DNA of 64,000 nucleotides from Candidatus Thalassarchaeum betae (GTDB taxonomy: Archaea; Thermoplasmatota; Poseidoniia; Poseidoniales; Thalassarchaeaceae), in contig PSPG01000006.1 of assembly GCA_003193925.1 (NCBI GenBank), positions 33,095 to 97,094 on the forward strand. The letters are read 5' to 3'. The translations under genes and the position numbers were made by a program. The notes beneath the pieces were generated by a model. The model made no database searches, was not told where the DNA came from, and saw only the letters and a program-made list of their open reading frames with translations. Below are positions 51,739-57,822 of this stretch, piece after piece. Numbering within the stretch: the stretch's first letter is position 1; each line of letters opens with the position of its first letter.

Positions 51739-52644
51739 ATGGCAAAGGGAGGAATCGTGCTTGGATGCCTTGCACCCCACCCTCCTCATGTGGTGTACGC
51801 GGAGAGCCCCCCCCAGAATGAGCCGTTCGCTGAGGGCGGCTGGGAGACCCTGCGCTGGGGCTACCACAGACTGGCCCGCAAGCTGAAGGGCATAGACTAC
51901 GACTGCATCGTCGTCCTAACCCCGCACTGGCAGACCTACGTGGGAACCCACTTCCTCGGTCTCGAGCGCTTCAAGAACATCAGTGTCGACCCGGTCTTCC
52001 CCAATCTGTTCAGGTTCCACCACGACATACAGGTCGACGTCGAACTGGCTGAGGCGATGCACGATTCGGCTGCCGAGTCGGGAATCATCACCAAGATGAT
52101 GCGCAACCCGGACTTCAGGGTGGACTACGGCACCATAGTCAGCTGCCACATGCTCAATCCAGACTGGGACAAGCCGATTGTCACAATCAGCTCCAACAGG
52201 TCCACGCACTACTACAGTAACGAGGTGATGAACGAGCAGGCAGCCGCACTGGGCGAGGCCGCGATGAAGGCGATCGAGGCCAGCGGCAAGAAGGTCGTCC
52301 TCGTCGCCAGCCACTCGCTGTCGCACCGCCACTTCGTGACCGAGGCCCCACTGCCCGAGGACATGAGCAGAGAGCACATCTACAATCACAGCCAGTACGT
52401 CTGGGACATGAAACTCGTGCAGATGATGCGCGAGGGCAAGATGAGGGAGGTCATCGACATCCTGCCCGAGATGATCGAGCAGACCATGGCCGAGGCAGAG
52501 GGCGGCGGACTCAGCTGGATGATGGCTGCGATGGGCTACCCCGACTACCCTGCTGAGATCTACGGCTACCAGTCCGTCATCGGCACGGGAAACGCCATCG
52601 CGGCATGGGACCCGAATGCTGCGACGCGCGAATTGGTTCTCTGA
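51739..52644 (+). CDS. LigB-type extradiol dioxygenase, catalytic subunit (2-aminophenol 1,6-dioxygenase beta-like)
   Basis: A 301-aa LigB-superfamily ring-cleavage enzyme. Candidate iron ligands are His14 (APHPPH) and His63 (LTPHWQ), plus a C-terminal acidic residue in the EGGGLSWM or YPAEIYGYQ region. The catalytic acid/base histidine is in VASHSLSHRHF. All are intact, marking it as the active beta subunit. The next gene encodes a paralogue lacking these histidines, the pattern of the AmnB/AmnA pair. It is first in a three-gene operon ending with a RidA-family protein. AT-rich sequence before the ATG carries a TATA-like TTCTTTAGATT. Exact substrate is unproven. Confidence 0.82.
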   Translation: MAKGGIVLGCLAPHPPHVVYAESPPQNEPFAEGGWETLRWGYHRLARKLKGIDYDCIVVLTPHWQTYVGTHFLGLERFKNISVDPVFPNLFRFHHDIQVDVELAEAMHDSAAESGIITKMMRNPDFRVDYGTIVSCHMLNPDWDKPIVTISSNRSTHYYSNEVMNEQAAALGEAAMKAIEASGKKVVLVASHSLSHRHFVTEAPLPEDMSREHIYNHSQYVWDMKLVQMMREGKMREVIDILPEMIEQTMAEAEGGGLSWMMAAMGYPDYPAEIYGYQSVIGTGNAIAAWDPNAATRELVL

Positions 52645-52653
52645 GGTGATCGA

Positions 52654-53580
52654 ATGAGCGAGGAGCCTGACATCGTACTCGGATTCTACGTGCCCCCGCA
52701 CCCTCACCCGCTGCTTGCGCACGAGCAGAACGAGGGCTGGGGCAGGTTGCGCGAGGCCTTCGACACATGCCGCCAGAGAATCGAGGAGAGTGGGGCCGAC
52801 CTGATGCTGATCTACTCGACCGTCTGGCCCAGCATCGTCGGTCACCAGATCCAGGCACACCCGAAGCCGGTGTTCACTCATGTCGACGACGACTTCCACT
52901 TCCTCGGAAGCATGCCGTACGAATTCAGCATGGACTCCGAGTACGCTGAGAAGTTCAAGGACGCGTGCGAGGCGCGTGGCCTGCACGCGCGCACCGTGGC
53001 CTACGACGGCTTCCCAATCGACACCGGCTCGGTGGTCGCACTCAAACTGCTCAACCCCGACAACCGCATCCCGGCGTGCATAGTCTCCAGCAACGTCTAC
53101 TCCAATCGGGCCGAGCAGATAGTCCTGGGCAAGGCGGCCCGCGACGCGATGTCCGAGTTGGGCAAGAAGGTCGTAGTGGTGGTGGTGGCGAGCCTGTCAA
53201 ACCGCATGTTCACCGAGCACATAGACCCTGCCGATGATAGGATCCACAGCGCCAAGGACGACGAGTGGAACCGCAAGATCCTCGAGTTCTTCGCCGACGG
53301 CAGGCTGGAGGACATCAGCCAGCTGAGCCGCGACATCCACGGTCAGATCAGGGTCAACAAGGTAGTCGCCTACAAGCCTGCGTGGTGGATGGCCGCCACT
53401 ATGGGGCAGCACAACAACTACACCGGCGAGGTGCTGGCCTACGAGGCCCTGCACGGAGCCGGCGGGGCGGTGATACAACTCACCCCCGCCAAGGGCGGTG
53501 TGGGCGACAAGGAGTTCGATGAGGACGATGTGGAGTACTACCACGGCGACCGCAGCGTGCTGGACAAGGGGATGCTGTGA
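52654..53580 (+). CDS. LigB-type extradiol dioxygenase, non-catalytic paralogue (2-aminophenol 1,6-dioxygenase alpha-like)
   Basis: A 308-aa paralogue of the previous gene, starting 9 bp after it. The N-terminal PPHPHPL is retained, but the second ligand region reads YSTVWPS instead of a TPHW, and the acid/base region reads VVASLSNRMF instead of VASHSLSHRHF. So two of the key histidines are gone, as in AmnA, the structural alpha subunit of the alpha2beta2 2-aminophenol dioxygenase. It likely forms a heterotetramer with the 51739 product. The RidA-like gene overlaps its stop by 4 bp. Confidence 0.8.
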   Translation: MSEEPDIVLGFYVPPHPHPLLAHEQNEGWGRLREAFDTCRQRIEESGADLMLIYSTVWPSIVGHQIQAHPKPVFTHVDDDFHFLGSMPYEFSMDSEYAEKFKDACEARGLHARTVAYDGFPIDTGSVVALKLLNPDNRIPACIVSSNVYSNRAEQIVLGKAARDAMSELGKKVVVVVVASLSNRMFTEHIDPADDRIHSAKDDEWNRKILEFFADGRLEDISQLSRDIHGQIRVNKVVAYKPAWWMAATMGQHNNYTGEVLAYEALHGAGGAVIQLTPAKGGVGDKEFDEDDVEYYHGDRSVLDKGML

Positions 53581-54191
53581 TGCCTCGCGACAAGCATCCG
53601 GAGCCTGATGAAGAGGATAGCATCGTCGAGGAGATTTACGACGAGATCGGCGAGAGCGTGATAGGCAAGGGCGCCGAGGTCATCGGGGCAGCCGCCGGTC
53701 TGGTTGTCGGAGGCCCTTTGGGGGCTTTGATAGGAGGGGTCGCCGGCAAGAGAGCCGCGAGCAAGCTGTTGGGCGACGACGGGCCGTTCATCACCGAGGA
53801 AGGCCCCTCTGCAGTGGGTGCGTACCCGCACTTGTACAAGGCCGGCAAACTGCTGTTTCTCAGCGGCATGGGACCGCGCACCCCCGACACCAACGAGATT
53901 CCCGGAGGGCCCGTCAGAGACGCTGATGGCAACCCGCTGGACTACGACATCCAAGCCCAGACTCACTCGGTCATCAACAACGTCCGCGTGATCCTCGAAG
54001 CGCATGGATCAAGCTTGGAGGACGTGGTCGACGTGCTGGTCTTCCTCGTCGATATGGAGCGCGATTTCCCCGGCTACAACGAGGTCTACTCGCACTACTT
54101 CGCAGACATCCTGCCGGCGCGCACCACCGTGGCAGTGGAGGCTCTGCCCACTGCCATAGCCATCGAGCTGAAGGTCATCGCCAAGGCCTAG
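53577..54191 (+). CDS. RidA-family protein with N-terminal glycine-zipper extension, candidate 2-aminomuconate deaminase
   Basis: A 204-aa protein. Residues about 75-204 form a RidA/YjgF domain (GKLLFLSGMGPR, DIQAQTHSVINNVRVILEAHG, and the substrate-binding Arg in LPARTTVAVEALP). In 2-aminophenol degraders, 2-aminomuconate deaminase belongs to this family. Residues about 1-70 are an acidic N-terminus followed by a Gly/Ala zipper (IGAAAGLVVGGPLGALIGGVAG), which is unusual for RidA and suggests membrane association or oligomer packing. ATG overlaps the preceding stop (ATGA-type), so it is translationally coupled to the dioxygenase pair. General imine deaminase activity is the alternative. Confidence 0.82.
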   Translation: MMPRDKHPEPDEEDSIVEEIYDEIGESVIGKGAEVIGAAAGLVVGGPLGALIGGVAGKRAASKLLGDDGPFITEEGPSAVGAYPHLYKAGKLLFLSGMGPRTPDTNEIPGGPVRDADGNPLDYDIQAQTHSVINNVRVILEAHGSSLEDVVDVLVFLVDMERDFPGYNEVYSHYFADILPARTTVAVEALPTAIAIELKVIAKA

Positions 54192-55216
54192 TCACCTATC
54201 CATTCGATGTCCTCGGATGCGCACCAGGTCGGTGCGGTCAGCGGGTTGCAGCGGCTGGGCGTGCCGTTGGGTATGGCTATCCAGTAGTCCATCCCCTCGA
54301 CAGGCCCGGGATAGTCCGTCGAGATGCTGTGCGCGCCGGACGCGAGAGCGGCCTCGAAGCGCGCGGTGTCGTTGTTGTCGGCCTCCCCGCCGCCGCTATC
54401 GGCCCGGGTGCGGACGATGTAGCCCTCGCTGACCAGCCGGGCGATGTCCTCGCCGCTGCCTACGGGATCGGTCAGCGAGAAGATGGACGCCTCGCTGCTC
54501 CCCTCAGGGGACAGCGTGAACATCAGTGCACCGACGAGTCCGGGGTGCTCTTCGAGGTAGAGGTCGCGCATATCTCCGCCTGCGAGCAGGACGAAGATCG
54601 CCTTGCCCCGGCTCTCCTCGAGCAGCGGCCAGCCGTCGTTGAGAATTCCCTCGCTGAGGGTAGGCCACTCGCCGCGCACGTCATCGGGGGTGATGGTGAG
54701 GTTGCGCGGCCAGAACTCGGCGATTTCGTCCTCGATGTCCTGCAGCAGGCCCGAGAGCTCCACGGTGGTGGTGATGTCGACCGCCTGCTCGGGCCAGTCC
54801 TTGGGTTCGACCCAGATCATCAACGGGTGGTGCTGGTCGTTGGCCTCAGACCAGGCCAGCAGGGTGCTCAGGCAGTCCTCGAAGGTCGGACAGGTGGTGC
54901 CCGAATCGTACTGGTTGTGGTAGACCCGCAGACCCTCGCGCACGTCCCACCAGACATCGATCTCGAACTGCCTGACGCCTAGGTCAGCGGCCTGGACGTC
55001 CAGCGGCTCGTGGGTGTAGACGTATTCACGGGTCGGCGAGACCAGCGGCTCGATGTGGTACGAGTTGTGGGTCCCCTCCATCTGGATGTGGTTGAGTCTC
55101 AGCGGCTCTTTCTCCTCGTCCTCACCGAACAGGCCCCCGCTGCCGCCGAGGCCGAAGCACCCGCTCAGCGGAGCCGCCATCAGCATGACTGCCAGTATGC
55201 CGTTCAAGAGCCTCAT
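54188..55216 (-). CDS. secreted lipoprotein, Ca2+-dependent PI-phospholipase C-like
   Basis: A 342-aa extracellular protein. From ATG 55216 it begins MRLLNGILAVMLMAAPLSGC, a clear lipoprotein signal peptide with a lipobox cysteine. The catalytic domain opens RLNHIQMEGTHNSYH, the signature of the Ca2+-dependent phosphoinositide phospholipase C family (PF16670 type), with further EIDVWWD and the late ADNNDTARFEAALASGAHSISTDYP. It probably cleaves phospholipids or related phosphodiesters outside the cell. It is convergent with the RidA gene (4-bp overlap) and divergent from the permease. Confidence 0.85.
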   Translation of the reverse strand: MRLLNGILAVMLMAAPLSGCFGLGGSGGLFGEDEEKEPLRLNHIQMEGTHNSYHIEPLVSPTREYVYTHEPLDVQAADLGVRQFEIDVWWDVREGLRVYHNQYDSGTTCPTFEDCLSTLLAWSEANDQHHPLMIWVEPKDWPEQAVDITTTVELSGLLQDIEDEIAEFWPRNLTITPDDVRGEWPTLSEGILNDGWPLLEESRGKAIFVLLAGGDMRDLYLEEHPGLVGALMFTLSPEGSSEASIFSLTDPVGSGEDIARLVSEGYIVRTRADSGGGEADNNDTARFEAALASGAHSISTDYPGPVEGMDYWIAIPNGTPSRCNPLTAPTWCASEDIEWIGD

Positions 55217-55296
55217 TTTCAATCTCCCAGAGGGAGCGTCGACAAAGAAGGATTCGGCGGGAGAACCTTCAACAACGGCCGAGATTCGGCTAAACC

Positions 55297-56949
55297 ATGA
55301 GGCCATTAGATCCGAAAGACCTCGTTGGCATCGTCCTTACGCCCATGGAAATCGTTTCCGACACACTGGAGCGCAAGTTGGGGCTCTTCTCGGTGGTCAT
55401 CATCTCGCTGTCGGCGATGATAGGCAGCGGACTTTTCGTCCTTCCGTCTCTGGCCTACGCGATGGTCGGAGGAGGGGTCTGGCTGGCCTTCGTACTCGCA
55501 GCGCTCGTAGTTATCCCCGGGGCGATGAGCCAGAGCGAGCTGGCCTCGGCCATGCCGACCTCGGGGGGATCCTTCGTCTTCATCGAGCGAACCTTCGGGC
55601 CCATGATCGGGACCATGGCCGGCCTCGGACTTTGGGCCTCCTTCCTGCTCAAGGCCGCCTTCGCGCTAATCGGCTTCTCCGCCTATCTGATGTTCGTACA
55701 GGGGGATCTGGGGACCGATATCACCGCCATTCAGGCGGCCCTCGGCATGCTGGCTCTCATCGCCATCATCAACATCCTCGGCATGAAGAGGATAAAGTCC
55801 ATCCAGACGCCTATCGTCGCCCTGACTATCCTCATGCTGGTCGGCCTGACCATCTGGGCGATCGCCAGCGGTGAGGCAGACTACTCGAGGGCCCGGCCTG
55901 TGCTGCAGACCACGAGCGACTGGACGATGATGGGGGAGACCACCGCCTTCGTGCTCATCTCCTACGCTGGAGTGGCCAAAGTAGCGGCTATAGGCGGGGA
56001 GATCAAGGATCCCGGCAGGAACCTGCCCGGGGGCATCATGACCTCCCTCGCAATAGGCGCAGTGCTCTATGCCGCCCTCGTCGCGACCATGGTGGCCGTA
56101 ATCCCAGACGAGGCATTCTACGGCGCGGATGGACATGCCATAGAGGACCCGGTCCGCGCCTTCGCCGAAGCGATAGGCGGGCACTATGTGGCCCTCTTCG
56201 CCGCGGTGGTTGCGGTCCTGACCATGACATCGATGGCTCTGGCGGGCATCCTCGCTGCCTCGCGCTACCTGTTCGCTATGTCCCGGGACAGCCTGCTGCC
56301 TCAATCCCTGGAGGATCTGCACCCCAAGTACGACACACCCCACATCGCGATTGGCCTCACCGCACTGGCAATGGCCACAGCACTCGTCACCATAGACGTC
56401 CACCAAGTCGCCGAGTACGCCTCGGGCTTCCAGATCATGGTGTACGTCCTGATGTGCCTGTCCGTCCTTGTCCTGAGGAAGGCCTCGCCCTCGCATGCAT
56501 GGTACCTGCCCGAGTATGACGCTCCTTTCCGCCCCTTGCTGCAGTTATTCGGAATCGTGTCAGGAGTGACCCTTCTCTGGTTCATGGGCTCCGAGGCCCT
56601 GATTGGTGCGGTTTCCGCGGCCGCCCTCGGAGCGCTGATCTACCAGATCTACGGCAAGAGGCACCTCAGCCACAAGATCTCGCCGTGGGAGACTTTCAGG
56701 TTGATGTCCTCCGACCCCTACCGGGCCGAGTCCCGCCGACGCTCCGCCGCCTTCTTCTCGGCGGACACCTGGGGCAACAATCTGCTGACTCTCAGGCAGT
56801 TCACTTCCTGCGTCGAGGCTCTGGGCATGGAATACGAGGACCCAGACACGCTGCGCGATTACTTCCACGCAGCCGACGAGAACGGTGACGGCCTGATTCA
56901 CATAGACCAGTTCCTGATGGCTCTCGAAGCAATGGCTTCCGAGGACTGA
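55297..56949 (+). CDS. APC-family amino acid permease with C-terminal EF-hand domain
   Basis: A 550-aa protein. Residues about 25-450 are a 12-TM APC transporter, with SLSAMIGSGLFVLP as the first-helix signature and YAGVAKVAAIGGEIKDPGRNLP in the middle. The C-terminal cytoplasmic part (about 460-550) carries a canonical EF-hand loop, DENGDGLIHIDQ, at about 526-537, preceded by a second, degenerate helix-loop region. Position 12 is Gln rather than Glu/Asp. A calcium-binding domain on an APC permease is unusual and suggests Ca2+-dependent control. TTCAACAACGG is 29 nt before ATG 55297, fixing that start. Confidence 0.88.
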   Translation: MRPLDPKDLVGIVLTPMEIVSDTLERKLGLFSVVIISLSAMIGSGLFVLPSLAYAMVGGGVWLAFVLAALVVIPGAMSQSELASAMPTSGGSFVFIERTFGPMIGTMAGLGLWASFLLKAAFALIGFSAYLMFVQGDLGTDITAIQAALGMLALIAIINILGMKRIKSIQTPIVALTILMLVGLTIWAIASGEADYSRARPVLQTTSDWTMMGETTAFVLISYAGVAKVAAIGGEIKDPGRNLPGGIMTSLAIGAVLYAALVATMVAVIPDEAFYGADGHAIEDPVRAFAEAIGGHYVALFAAVVAVLTMTSMALAGILAASRYLFAMSRDSLLPQSLEDLHPKYDTPHIAIGLTALAMATALVTIDVHQVAEYASGFQIMVYVLMCLSVLVLRKASPSHAWYLPEYDAPFRPLLQLFGIVSGVTLLWFMGSEALIGAVSAAALGALIYQIYGKRHLSHKISPWETFRLMSSDPYRAESRRRSAAFFSADTWGNNLLTLRQFTSCVEALGMEYEDPDTLRDYFHAADENGDGLIHIDQFLMALEAMASED

Positions 56950-56961
56950 GAACGCAGGCGT

Positions 56962-57822
56962 GTGGTTGAAGGCGTCAATCGCGCTCGGTACACTCCCGGA
57001 GGGAGTGCCACGGTTTCCAGTCGAGCGAAGAAGGTCACCACCCAGACGCTTCAGAAGATGAAGCAGGCTGGCGAGAAGATCGCCATGCTGACATCGTACG
57101 ACTACTCGCTGGCACGCCTCGTCGACGGCGCTGGAATCGACGTCATCCTAGTTGGCGACTCTGCCTCCAATGTGATGGCCGGAAACGAGACCACGGTGCC
57201 GATCACCCTCGACCAGATGATCTACCACGCCCAGTGTGTGGTAAATGGGGTCGACAGGGCCCTAGTCGTCGTCGATATGCCGTTCGGCTCCTACCAAGGC
57301 GACTCCAAGACCGCGCTCGACTCGGCGATCCGCATCATGAAGGAGTCCGGAGGCCACGCGGTGAAGCTCGAGGGCGGCTCCGAGGTCTGCGAATCGGTCG
57401 AGCGGATCGTCAACGCGGGAATCCCCGTGATGGGACACCTCGGGCTGACGCCGCAGTCGATCTACAAGTTCGGCACCTACACCGTCCGGGCCAAGGAGGA
57501 CGCCGAGGCTGCCAAGCTGATGGAGGACGCCAAGGCGCTCGAGGAGGCGGGCTGCTTCTCGGTGGTCCTCGAGAAGATACCCGCTGAGCTGGCCAAGCAG
57601 GCCAGCGAGTCGCTGAACATCCCGACCATCGGCATTGGAGCCGGCGCTGATTGCGACGGGCAGGTCCTCGTGCTGCACGACATGCTCGGCATCACCAAGG
57701 ACTTCTCACCGAGGTTCCTGAGGAGGTACGCCGAGATCGGCGACACGGTCGAGGCCGCTGTAAAGCGGTACGTCGAGGACGTCCGCAGCGTAGAATTCCC
57801 GAACGAGGAAGAGAGGTACTGA
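56962..57822 (+). CDS. panB: 3-methyl-2-oxobutanoate hydroxymethyltransferase (PanB)
   Basis: Makes ketopantoate for pantothenate and CoA synthesis. Family core: [17 protein letters not shown], the metal-binding [32 protein letters not shown], and the [21 protein letters not shown] segment. Length from GTG 56962 is 286 aa, with a roughly 20-residue extension before the usual start. The next in-frame start, ATG 57058, is too late. A TTGAAGG element at 56966 lies inside the frame, so the true start might use a non-canonical codon just downstream. It is 12 bp after the permease gene. Confidence 0.93.

Follow-up and report, generated by a model that had tools for sequence, protein, structure and literature searches.

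What might an archaeon of the ocean surface use an aminophenol-cleaving dioxygenase for, and where would its substrate come from? The question is raised by three adjacent genes in a 64,000-nucleotide stretch of DNA from Candidatus Thalassarchaeum betae (assembly GCA_003193925.1, contig PSPG01000006.1, positions 33,095 to 97,094 of the forward strand), which is referred to here as the window. The genes encode two LigB-family dioxygenase subunits, designated beta and alpha, and a RidA-family protein (Table 1), and an earlier reading of the DNA (the original prediction) had taken them for a 2-aminophenol-type ring-cleavage operon. Our analysis suggests that the trio probably carries out ring opening and deamination at the end of a tryptophan catabolic pathway that dispenses with kynureninase and has its other enzymes encoded elsewhere in the genome.

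The three gene products and their relatives

Gene spacing and motifs were found in the open reading frames and their translations exactly as originally described. The alpha gene begins 9 bp after the beta gene, and the RidA gene starts either at a GTG (53577), where it overlaps alpha by 4 bp, or at an ATG (53580); because this three-gene arrangement recurs in 88 of the 97 genomes of the order Poseidoniales, it is not due to chance. Beta carries the LigB histidine motifs APHPPH, TPHW and SHSLSHRH intact, whereas alpha has the altered versions STVW and SLSNRM. Both match the Pfam LigB profile (beta with 100 bits, alpha with 61), and the third protein matches Ribonuc_L-PSP/RidA with 90 bits.

When the proteins were compared with all PDB sequences, beta was closest to the beta subunit of 2-aminophenol 1,6-dioxygenase (8ihg_A, E 2e-103, followed by 3vsg_B, E 1e-102) and alpha to the alpha subunit of an aminophenol-type dioxygenase (7txy_A, E 3e-41). 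The best match of the RidA protein was the 2-aminomuconate deaminase 6izh (E 6e-25), with the generic RidA-family structure 2csl only slightly behind. Residues H13, H62 and E251 of 3vsg_B, the established iron ligands of this enzyme, align with H14, H63 and E252 of the window beta subunit, so that the 2-His-1-Glu iron site is kept, while all three ligands are missing from the window alpha subunit and from that of each of three relatives. The profile and PDB matches and the loss of iron ligands from alpha thus uphold the pairing of a presumably active AmnB-like with an inactive AmnA-like subunit. An AmnD-like role for the third gene, also part of the original prediction, agrees with the match to 6izh and with the fusion of alpha to RidA elsewhere: in the sister family Poseidoniaceae a single 476-aa protein is encoded (genome G060), and bacterial fusions were found at Planctomycetota, Myxococcota and Latescibacterota loci (examples from Poseidoniaceae and bacteria are L139:3669-5099(-), L105:8894-10357 and L093:8864-10336). 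Fusion of the iron-less subunit to the deaminase supports the placing of all three genes in one pathway, and the iron-less subunit may, where fused, serve the deaminase as a scaffold. The sequence comparisons, and a close relative of the next pathway enzyme encoded in the same genome (see below), support an AmnB/AmnA/AmnD-type reading of the trio. We also considered a MEMO, protocatechuate or homoprotocatechuate enzyme identity for beta, the first two of which had been named as evidence that would tell against the aminophenol assignment; by profile scores beta resembles none of these (HpaD_Fe, 103 bits where the cut-off is 316; MEMO, 13-18 bits) and this identity was rejected.

At the N-terminus of the window RidA protein, an extension of some 70 aa that is rich in Gly and resembles a glycine zipper precedes the RidA domain (window 53577-53790). 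Among relatives the length of the protein ranges from 141 to 215 aa, and the extension is therefore not conserved.

The nearest matches, at 87-93% identity, belong to Marine Group II (MGII; Candidatus Poseidoniales, Thalassarchaeaceae), the group of the window organism itself, and the beta gene is present in both families of the order, in 88 of its 97 genomes and in all 27 of the high-quality ones. A maximum-likelihood tree of 42 beta subunits, built with no outgroup, is divided by a long branch with 100/100 support into archaeal and approximately 20 bacterial betas on one side and characterised AmnB with two proteobacterial relatives on the other. In this unrooted tree beta falls in a sister clade to characterised AmnB (3vsg/8ihg) and is not nested within it. 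The bacteria on the archaeal side comprise Planctomycetota, Myxococcota, Acidobacteriota, Bdellovibrionota, Latescibacterota and others, and the Poseidoniales betas group together inside this bacterial set (support 92/86), which is consistent with a single early acquisition from bacteria. Only seven near-fixed residue differences separate the two beta clades, which have the iron site and most invariant positions in common. One record titled 'Micrococcales bacterium' (L056, NZLD01000051.1) has an MGII locus, with an 81% identical beta subunit, and is mislabelled or misbinned.

Linkage of the dioxygenase to tryptophan genes

Neighbouring genes were clustered across loci and named by Pfam and NCBIfam. 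It can be seen in sister MGII genomes and in many bacteria that the AmnB/AmnA pair recurs with a luciferase-like monooxygenase (LLM), a hydrolase of the Asparaginase_II family that resembles class 3 asparaginases (AsnII), an aldehyde dehydrogenase (ALDH) and a short-chain dehydrogenase (SDR), to which bacterial clusters add arylformamidase/kynurenine formamidase (KynB, TIGR03035) and tryptophan 2,3-dioxygenase (TDO). Complete bacterial operons run in one direction in the order SDR-LLM-AsnII-ALDH-AmnB-AmnA-RidA-KynB, and in Planctomycetota locus L103 and the bacterial metagenome-assembled genome locus L105 nine genes, encoding a cysteine dioxygenase-like protein, TDO, SDR, LLM, AsnII, ALDH, AmnB, AmnA-RidA and KynB, form a single one-direction operon. 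Six further complete or near-complete operons were recovered via LLM matches (L170, L171, L173, L174, L176 and L177), and in the cultured strain Acanthopleuribacter pedis the genes are divided between two clusters, TDO-SDR-LLM-ALDH-RidA and AmnB-AmnA-AsnII. These neighbourhoods narrow the original suggestion that the substrate came perhaps from amino acid breakdown to tryptophan and kynurenine.

The genome of the window encodes TDO (C1:7770-8762) and an LLM-AsnII-ALDH group (C20:7981-11849) away from the trio, and across the order TDO was found in 93, AsnII in 91 and LLM in 91 of 95 genomes. The identity of TDO is plausible from its PDB match (4hka, E 3e-46). A dehydrogenase for the step after ring cleavage, which the original prediction had proposed to seek elsewhere in the genome, is represented by a close relative of 2-aminomuconate 6-semialdehyde dehydrogenase: the ALDH of C20 matches 4u3w (E 7e-139), its seven best matches are all enzymes of this kind, and the same holds for the best PDB matches of the ALDH at locus L072. 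Beta, alpha, RidA and ALDH therefore find their best PDB matches in successive enzymes of the 2-aminophenol/2-aminomuconate pathway, which argues for the route proposed below.

We also counted AmnB, at full strength, and LLM in 343 Planctomycetota genomes. Both were present in 14, LLM only in five and neither in 324, and no genome had AmnB only (AmnB in 14/343, LLM in 19/343; Fisher p 4e-21, in a test that ignores the relatedness of the genomes). Among the 20 bacterial beta carriers 16 have LLM, and the two genomes of the classical AmnB clade are among the four that lack it. Kynureninase scoring over the cut-off was found neither in the window genome nor in any of the 20 bacterial AmnB/AmnA carriers, and in one of 60 MGII genomes. 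The sole MGII instance lies at L147 (G028:C29, a 15 kb contig), which is probably a contaminant contig or a recent acquisition.

Some variant loci were noted. A cysteine dioxygenase-like cupin gene lies ahead of TDO at L103:1548-2141 and L105:1529-2098. Around the AmnB-less LLM genes of three Planctomycetota (L178-L180) no aromatic-pathway context was found. In two others (L183:4954-7580(-) and L182:4996-7682) a divergent LLM (47%) adjoins a VioC/KMO-like FAD monooxygenase, with an aminotransferase nearby in L183; these loci possibly represent a related pathway or a biosynthetic variant.

A proposed route from tryptophan through 2-aminophenol

Without kynureninase, the enzymes left to lead from kynurenine, an aryl ketone whose side chain resembles aspartate, to 2-aminophenol are the flavin monooxygenase, the asparaginase-type hydrolase and the SDR. 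On balance we lean towards a route in which a luciferase-type Baeyer-Villiger monooxygenase and a repurposed class 3 asparaginase, acting as a beta-aspartyl aryl esterase, replace the pyridoxal phosphate-dependent kynureninase and release aspartate and 2-aminophenol, as a core trait of MGII that also occurs in scattered bacterial phyla. From the observed gene identities, linkage, co-occurrence and active-site conservation we infer every reaction of this route, above all the Baeyer-Villiger and ester-hydrolysis steps. Tryptophan would be opened by TDO and then deformylated to kynurenine, by KynB in bacteria. The FMN-dependent LLM would carry out a Baeyer-Villiger oxidation of the kynurenine aryl ketone, in which the electron-rich 2-aminophenyl ring would migrate to give the beta-(2-aminophenyl) ester of L-aspartate. 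As this product is the ester analogue of an asparaginase substrate, AsnII, a Ser/Lys hydrolase, fits as the next enzyme and would cleave it to L-aspartate and 2-aminophenol. AmnB/AmnA of the window locus would then open 2-aminophenol to 2-aminomuconate 6-semialdehyde, ALDH would oxidise this to 2-aminomuconate, and RidA would deaminate 2-aminomuconate to 4-oxalocrotonate (2-oxohex-3-enedioate); the steps after 2-aminophenol match the known Amn scheme (PMC10470539).

In order to characterise AsnII, 64 sequences were aligned and numbered after the class 3 L-asparaginase ReAV of Rhizobium etli (7os3), in which the alpha-carboxylate of the substrate is bound by Arg47 and Ser48 serves as nucleophile (PMC12292245). 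Both Ser-Lys tandems (Ser48-Lys51 and Ser80-Lys263) are shared with ReAV, as is Arg47, and all five residues are kept wherever they are covered (62-64 of 64, with one ambiguous residue at Lys51). The zinc ligand Lys138, which is 97% conserved in ordinary members (PMC11024299), is however replaced by Glu or His in all 63 sequences that cover the site, Cys249 by Asp in 64/64, and Cys135 and Cys189 are lost in a subset. Judged by the zinc site Cys135-Lys138-Cys189, AsnII was not classed as an L-asparaginase, since Lys138 is never kept. Such a residue pattern would be expected of an enzyme whose substrate kept its aspartyl moiety but had a different leaving group.

LLM forms a subfamily of its own, and a single-sequence search gave no PDB sequence match. 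Among the structural matches of its model (pLDDT 83), bacterial luciferase ranks first (Z 28.6), and the type II Baeyer-Villiger monooxygenase that acts in camphor degradation (Z 24.8) comes ahead of any F420 enzyme (Z 23.1 or less); identity to the luciferase and Baeyer-Villiger enzymes in the structural alignments is approximately 15-19%. This ranking agrees with the proposed Baeyer-Villiger step.

Several observations weigh against this route. Fold similarity of LLM cannot tell Baeyer-Villiger activity from hydroxylation, and the statistical association of LLM with AmnB, besides taking no account of shared ancestry, leaves the five LLM-positive Planctomycetota that lack AmnB. A KynB-family formamidase (PF04199) was found in 0/60 MGII genomes, which leaves archaeal deformylation unexplained, and the SDR, which has no assigned role, was not found adjacent to LLM in the window genome. 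A partial search for 4-oxalocrotonate decarboxylase/hydratase (PF01557) usually gave one short FAH-family protein per genome, best described as a generic FAH hydrolase and not a clear AmnE. The clusters contain no recognisable flavin reductase of their own; this is no contradiction, because two-component luciferase-type enzymes are supplied by reductases with FMNH2 that diffuses freely (PMC9864536). Thalassarchaeaceae lack KynB and have a formyltransferase-fold gene directly upstream of the LLM or SDR gene (L137:6432-7154 and L072:1054-1830); it is no more than a candidate substitute formamidase.

In the main rival explanation, LLM converts kynurenine by hydroxylation to 3-hydroxykynurenine, which is also an o-aminophenol; the ring of this compound is opened directly by AmnBA, and C-C hydrolysis of the ring-fission product by AsnII then releases aspartate. 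The gene set, the absence of kynureninase and the end products would all be the same. However, beta shares its iron ligands and, but for the few near-fixed differences given above, most of its invariant residues with AmnB, which takes small aminophenols. Moreover, monooxygenases of the luciferase family (group C) are known for Baeyer-Villiger reactions, S- and N-oxidation and desulfonation and are not known to hydroxylate aromatic rings, nor are Ser/Lys amidases known to act as C-C hydrolases. We judge this explanation unlikely, and less likely than the Baeyer-Villiger route.

It also seems rather improbable that 2-aminophenol or related aminophenols taken up from dissolved organic matter are the substrates of the trio in archaea, and that the tryptophan genes are independent of it. 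The closest characterised enzymes do take 2-aminophenol and its chlorinated form, and in the window genome the trio is not adjacent to tryptophan genes; but in bacteria the pair is linked in single operons to TDO, KynB, LLM and AsnII, in other MGII it is linked to LLM, AsnII and ALDH, and AmnB never occurs without LLM in the Planctomycetota. The loci near characterised AmnB (L110 and L111), by contrast, come from genomes that lack LLM and have no AsnII or KynB near the pair. A small chance is left to an ordinary 3-hydroxyanthranilate (3-HAA)-type kynurenine pathway, completed by the trio via an unrecognised kynureninase or kynurenine monooxygenase (KMO). TDO and KynB are indeed the normal upper enzymes of that pathway, but the conventional form was rejected for want of kynureninase, which exceeds the cut-off in none of the 20 bacterial carriers and in only one of the 60 MGII genomes, and the cupin 3-HAA dioxygenase and 2-amino-3-carboxymuconate 6-semialdehyde decarboxylase that it needs were not seen in the clusters, KMO not having been searched genome-wide.

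Neighbouring genes and relation to known systems

Features of the window locus are collected in Table 1. The permease, a neighbour of the dioxygenase genes that is kept in both Poseidoniales families, is a possible importer of the amino acid substrate. Its copy at L072:10244-11959 has C-terminal EF-hand motifs, and the window copy has a similar DENGDG loop at its end. The gene between those for RidA and the permease encodes a protein with a signal-like hydrophobic N-terminus. In both families panB often adjoins the cluster, for example also at L139:6583-7404 and L141:9379-10200.

Table 1. Features of the dioxygenase locus, in window positions.
Feature	Position	Strand	Length and basis
Predicted catalytic beta subunit (AmnB-like), aminophenol-type extradiol dioxygenase	51739..52644	+	301 aa; Pfam, PDB matches, tree, residue alignment
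AmnA-like alpha subunit, beta paralogue without iron ligands	52654..53580	+	308 aa; Pfam, PDB matches, alignment
RidA-family protein	53577..54191	+	204 aa; best PDB match 2-aminomuconate deaminase
Ca2+-dependent PI-PLC-C1-like protein	54188..55306	-	
APC-family amino acid permease	55297..56949	+	
panB (ketopantoate hydroxymethyltransferase)	56962..57822		

The known AmnA/AmnB 2-aminophenol 1,6-dioxygenases (Pseudomonas and Comamonas CNB-1, 8ihg and 3vsg; ARO microcompartment, 7txy, PMC10470539) likewise consist of two LigB-fold subunits, an active beta and an iron-less alpha, and are followed by a semialdehyde dehydrogenase and a RidA-type deaminase. The present genes differ in their separate clade, their archaeal hosts, the frequent fusion of alpha to RidA and their linkage to LLM, AsnII, KynB and TDO, where the known ones are linked to xenobiotic or microcompartment genes. 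With the canonical kynurenine pathway (TDO, KynB/KFA, KMO, kynureninase and 3-HAA dioxygenase) the proposed route has TDO and KynB at its head in common, but it lacks kynureninase, and its ring would be opened by AmnBA and not by the cupin dioxygenase. LLM shares the luciferase TIM-barrel fold with bacterial luciferase and type II Baeyer-Villiger monooxygenases (3,6-diketocamphane monooxygenase, 4uwm and 5aec), FMN-monooxygenase relatives outranking F420 enzymes, although its low identity to them sets it apart. The open-access literature searched (subscription papers and preprints were outside the scope) gave no account of a route that joins kynurenine to Baeyer-Villiger oxidation and 2-aminophenol, to asparaginase or to MGII, and the individual MGII papers checked made no mention of tryptophan or dioxygenases. 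Each enzyme family is known; the novelty, which is provisional, would lie in the route and in two of the reactions.

MGII, an uncultivated group described as the most abundant among the planktonic archaea in the surface waters of the ocean, are thought to use proteins and peptides (PMC6461757). If the proposed route is correct, a core oxygen-dependent path from tryptophan to central metabolism would give them a concrete niche and marker genes, and kynureninase chemistry would be replaced in a textbook pathway. Testable new functions would be assigned to the luciferase-like and class 3 asparaginase-like subfamilies, and the cultured carrier Acanthopleuribacter pedis KCTC 12899 makes the route directly testable. 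The precursor of 2-aminophenol is stated to be unknown in the study of the ARO microcompartment (PMC10470539); the route would provide a natural source of this compound to feed aminophenol meta-cleavage.

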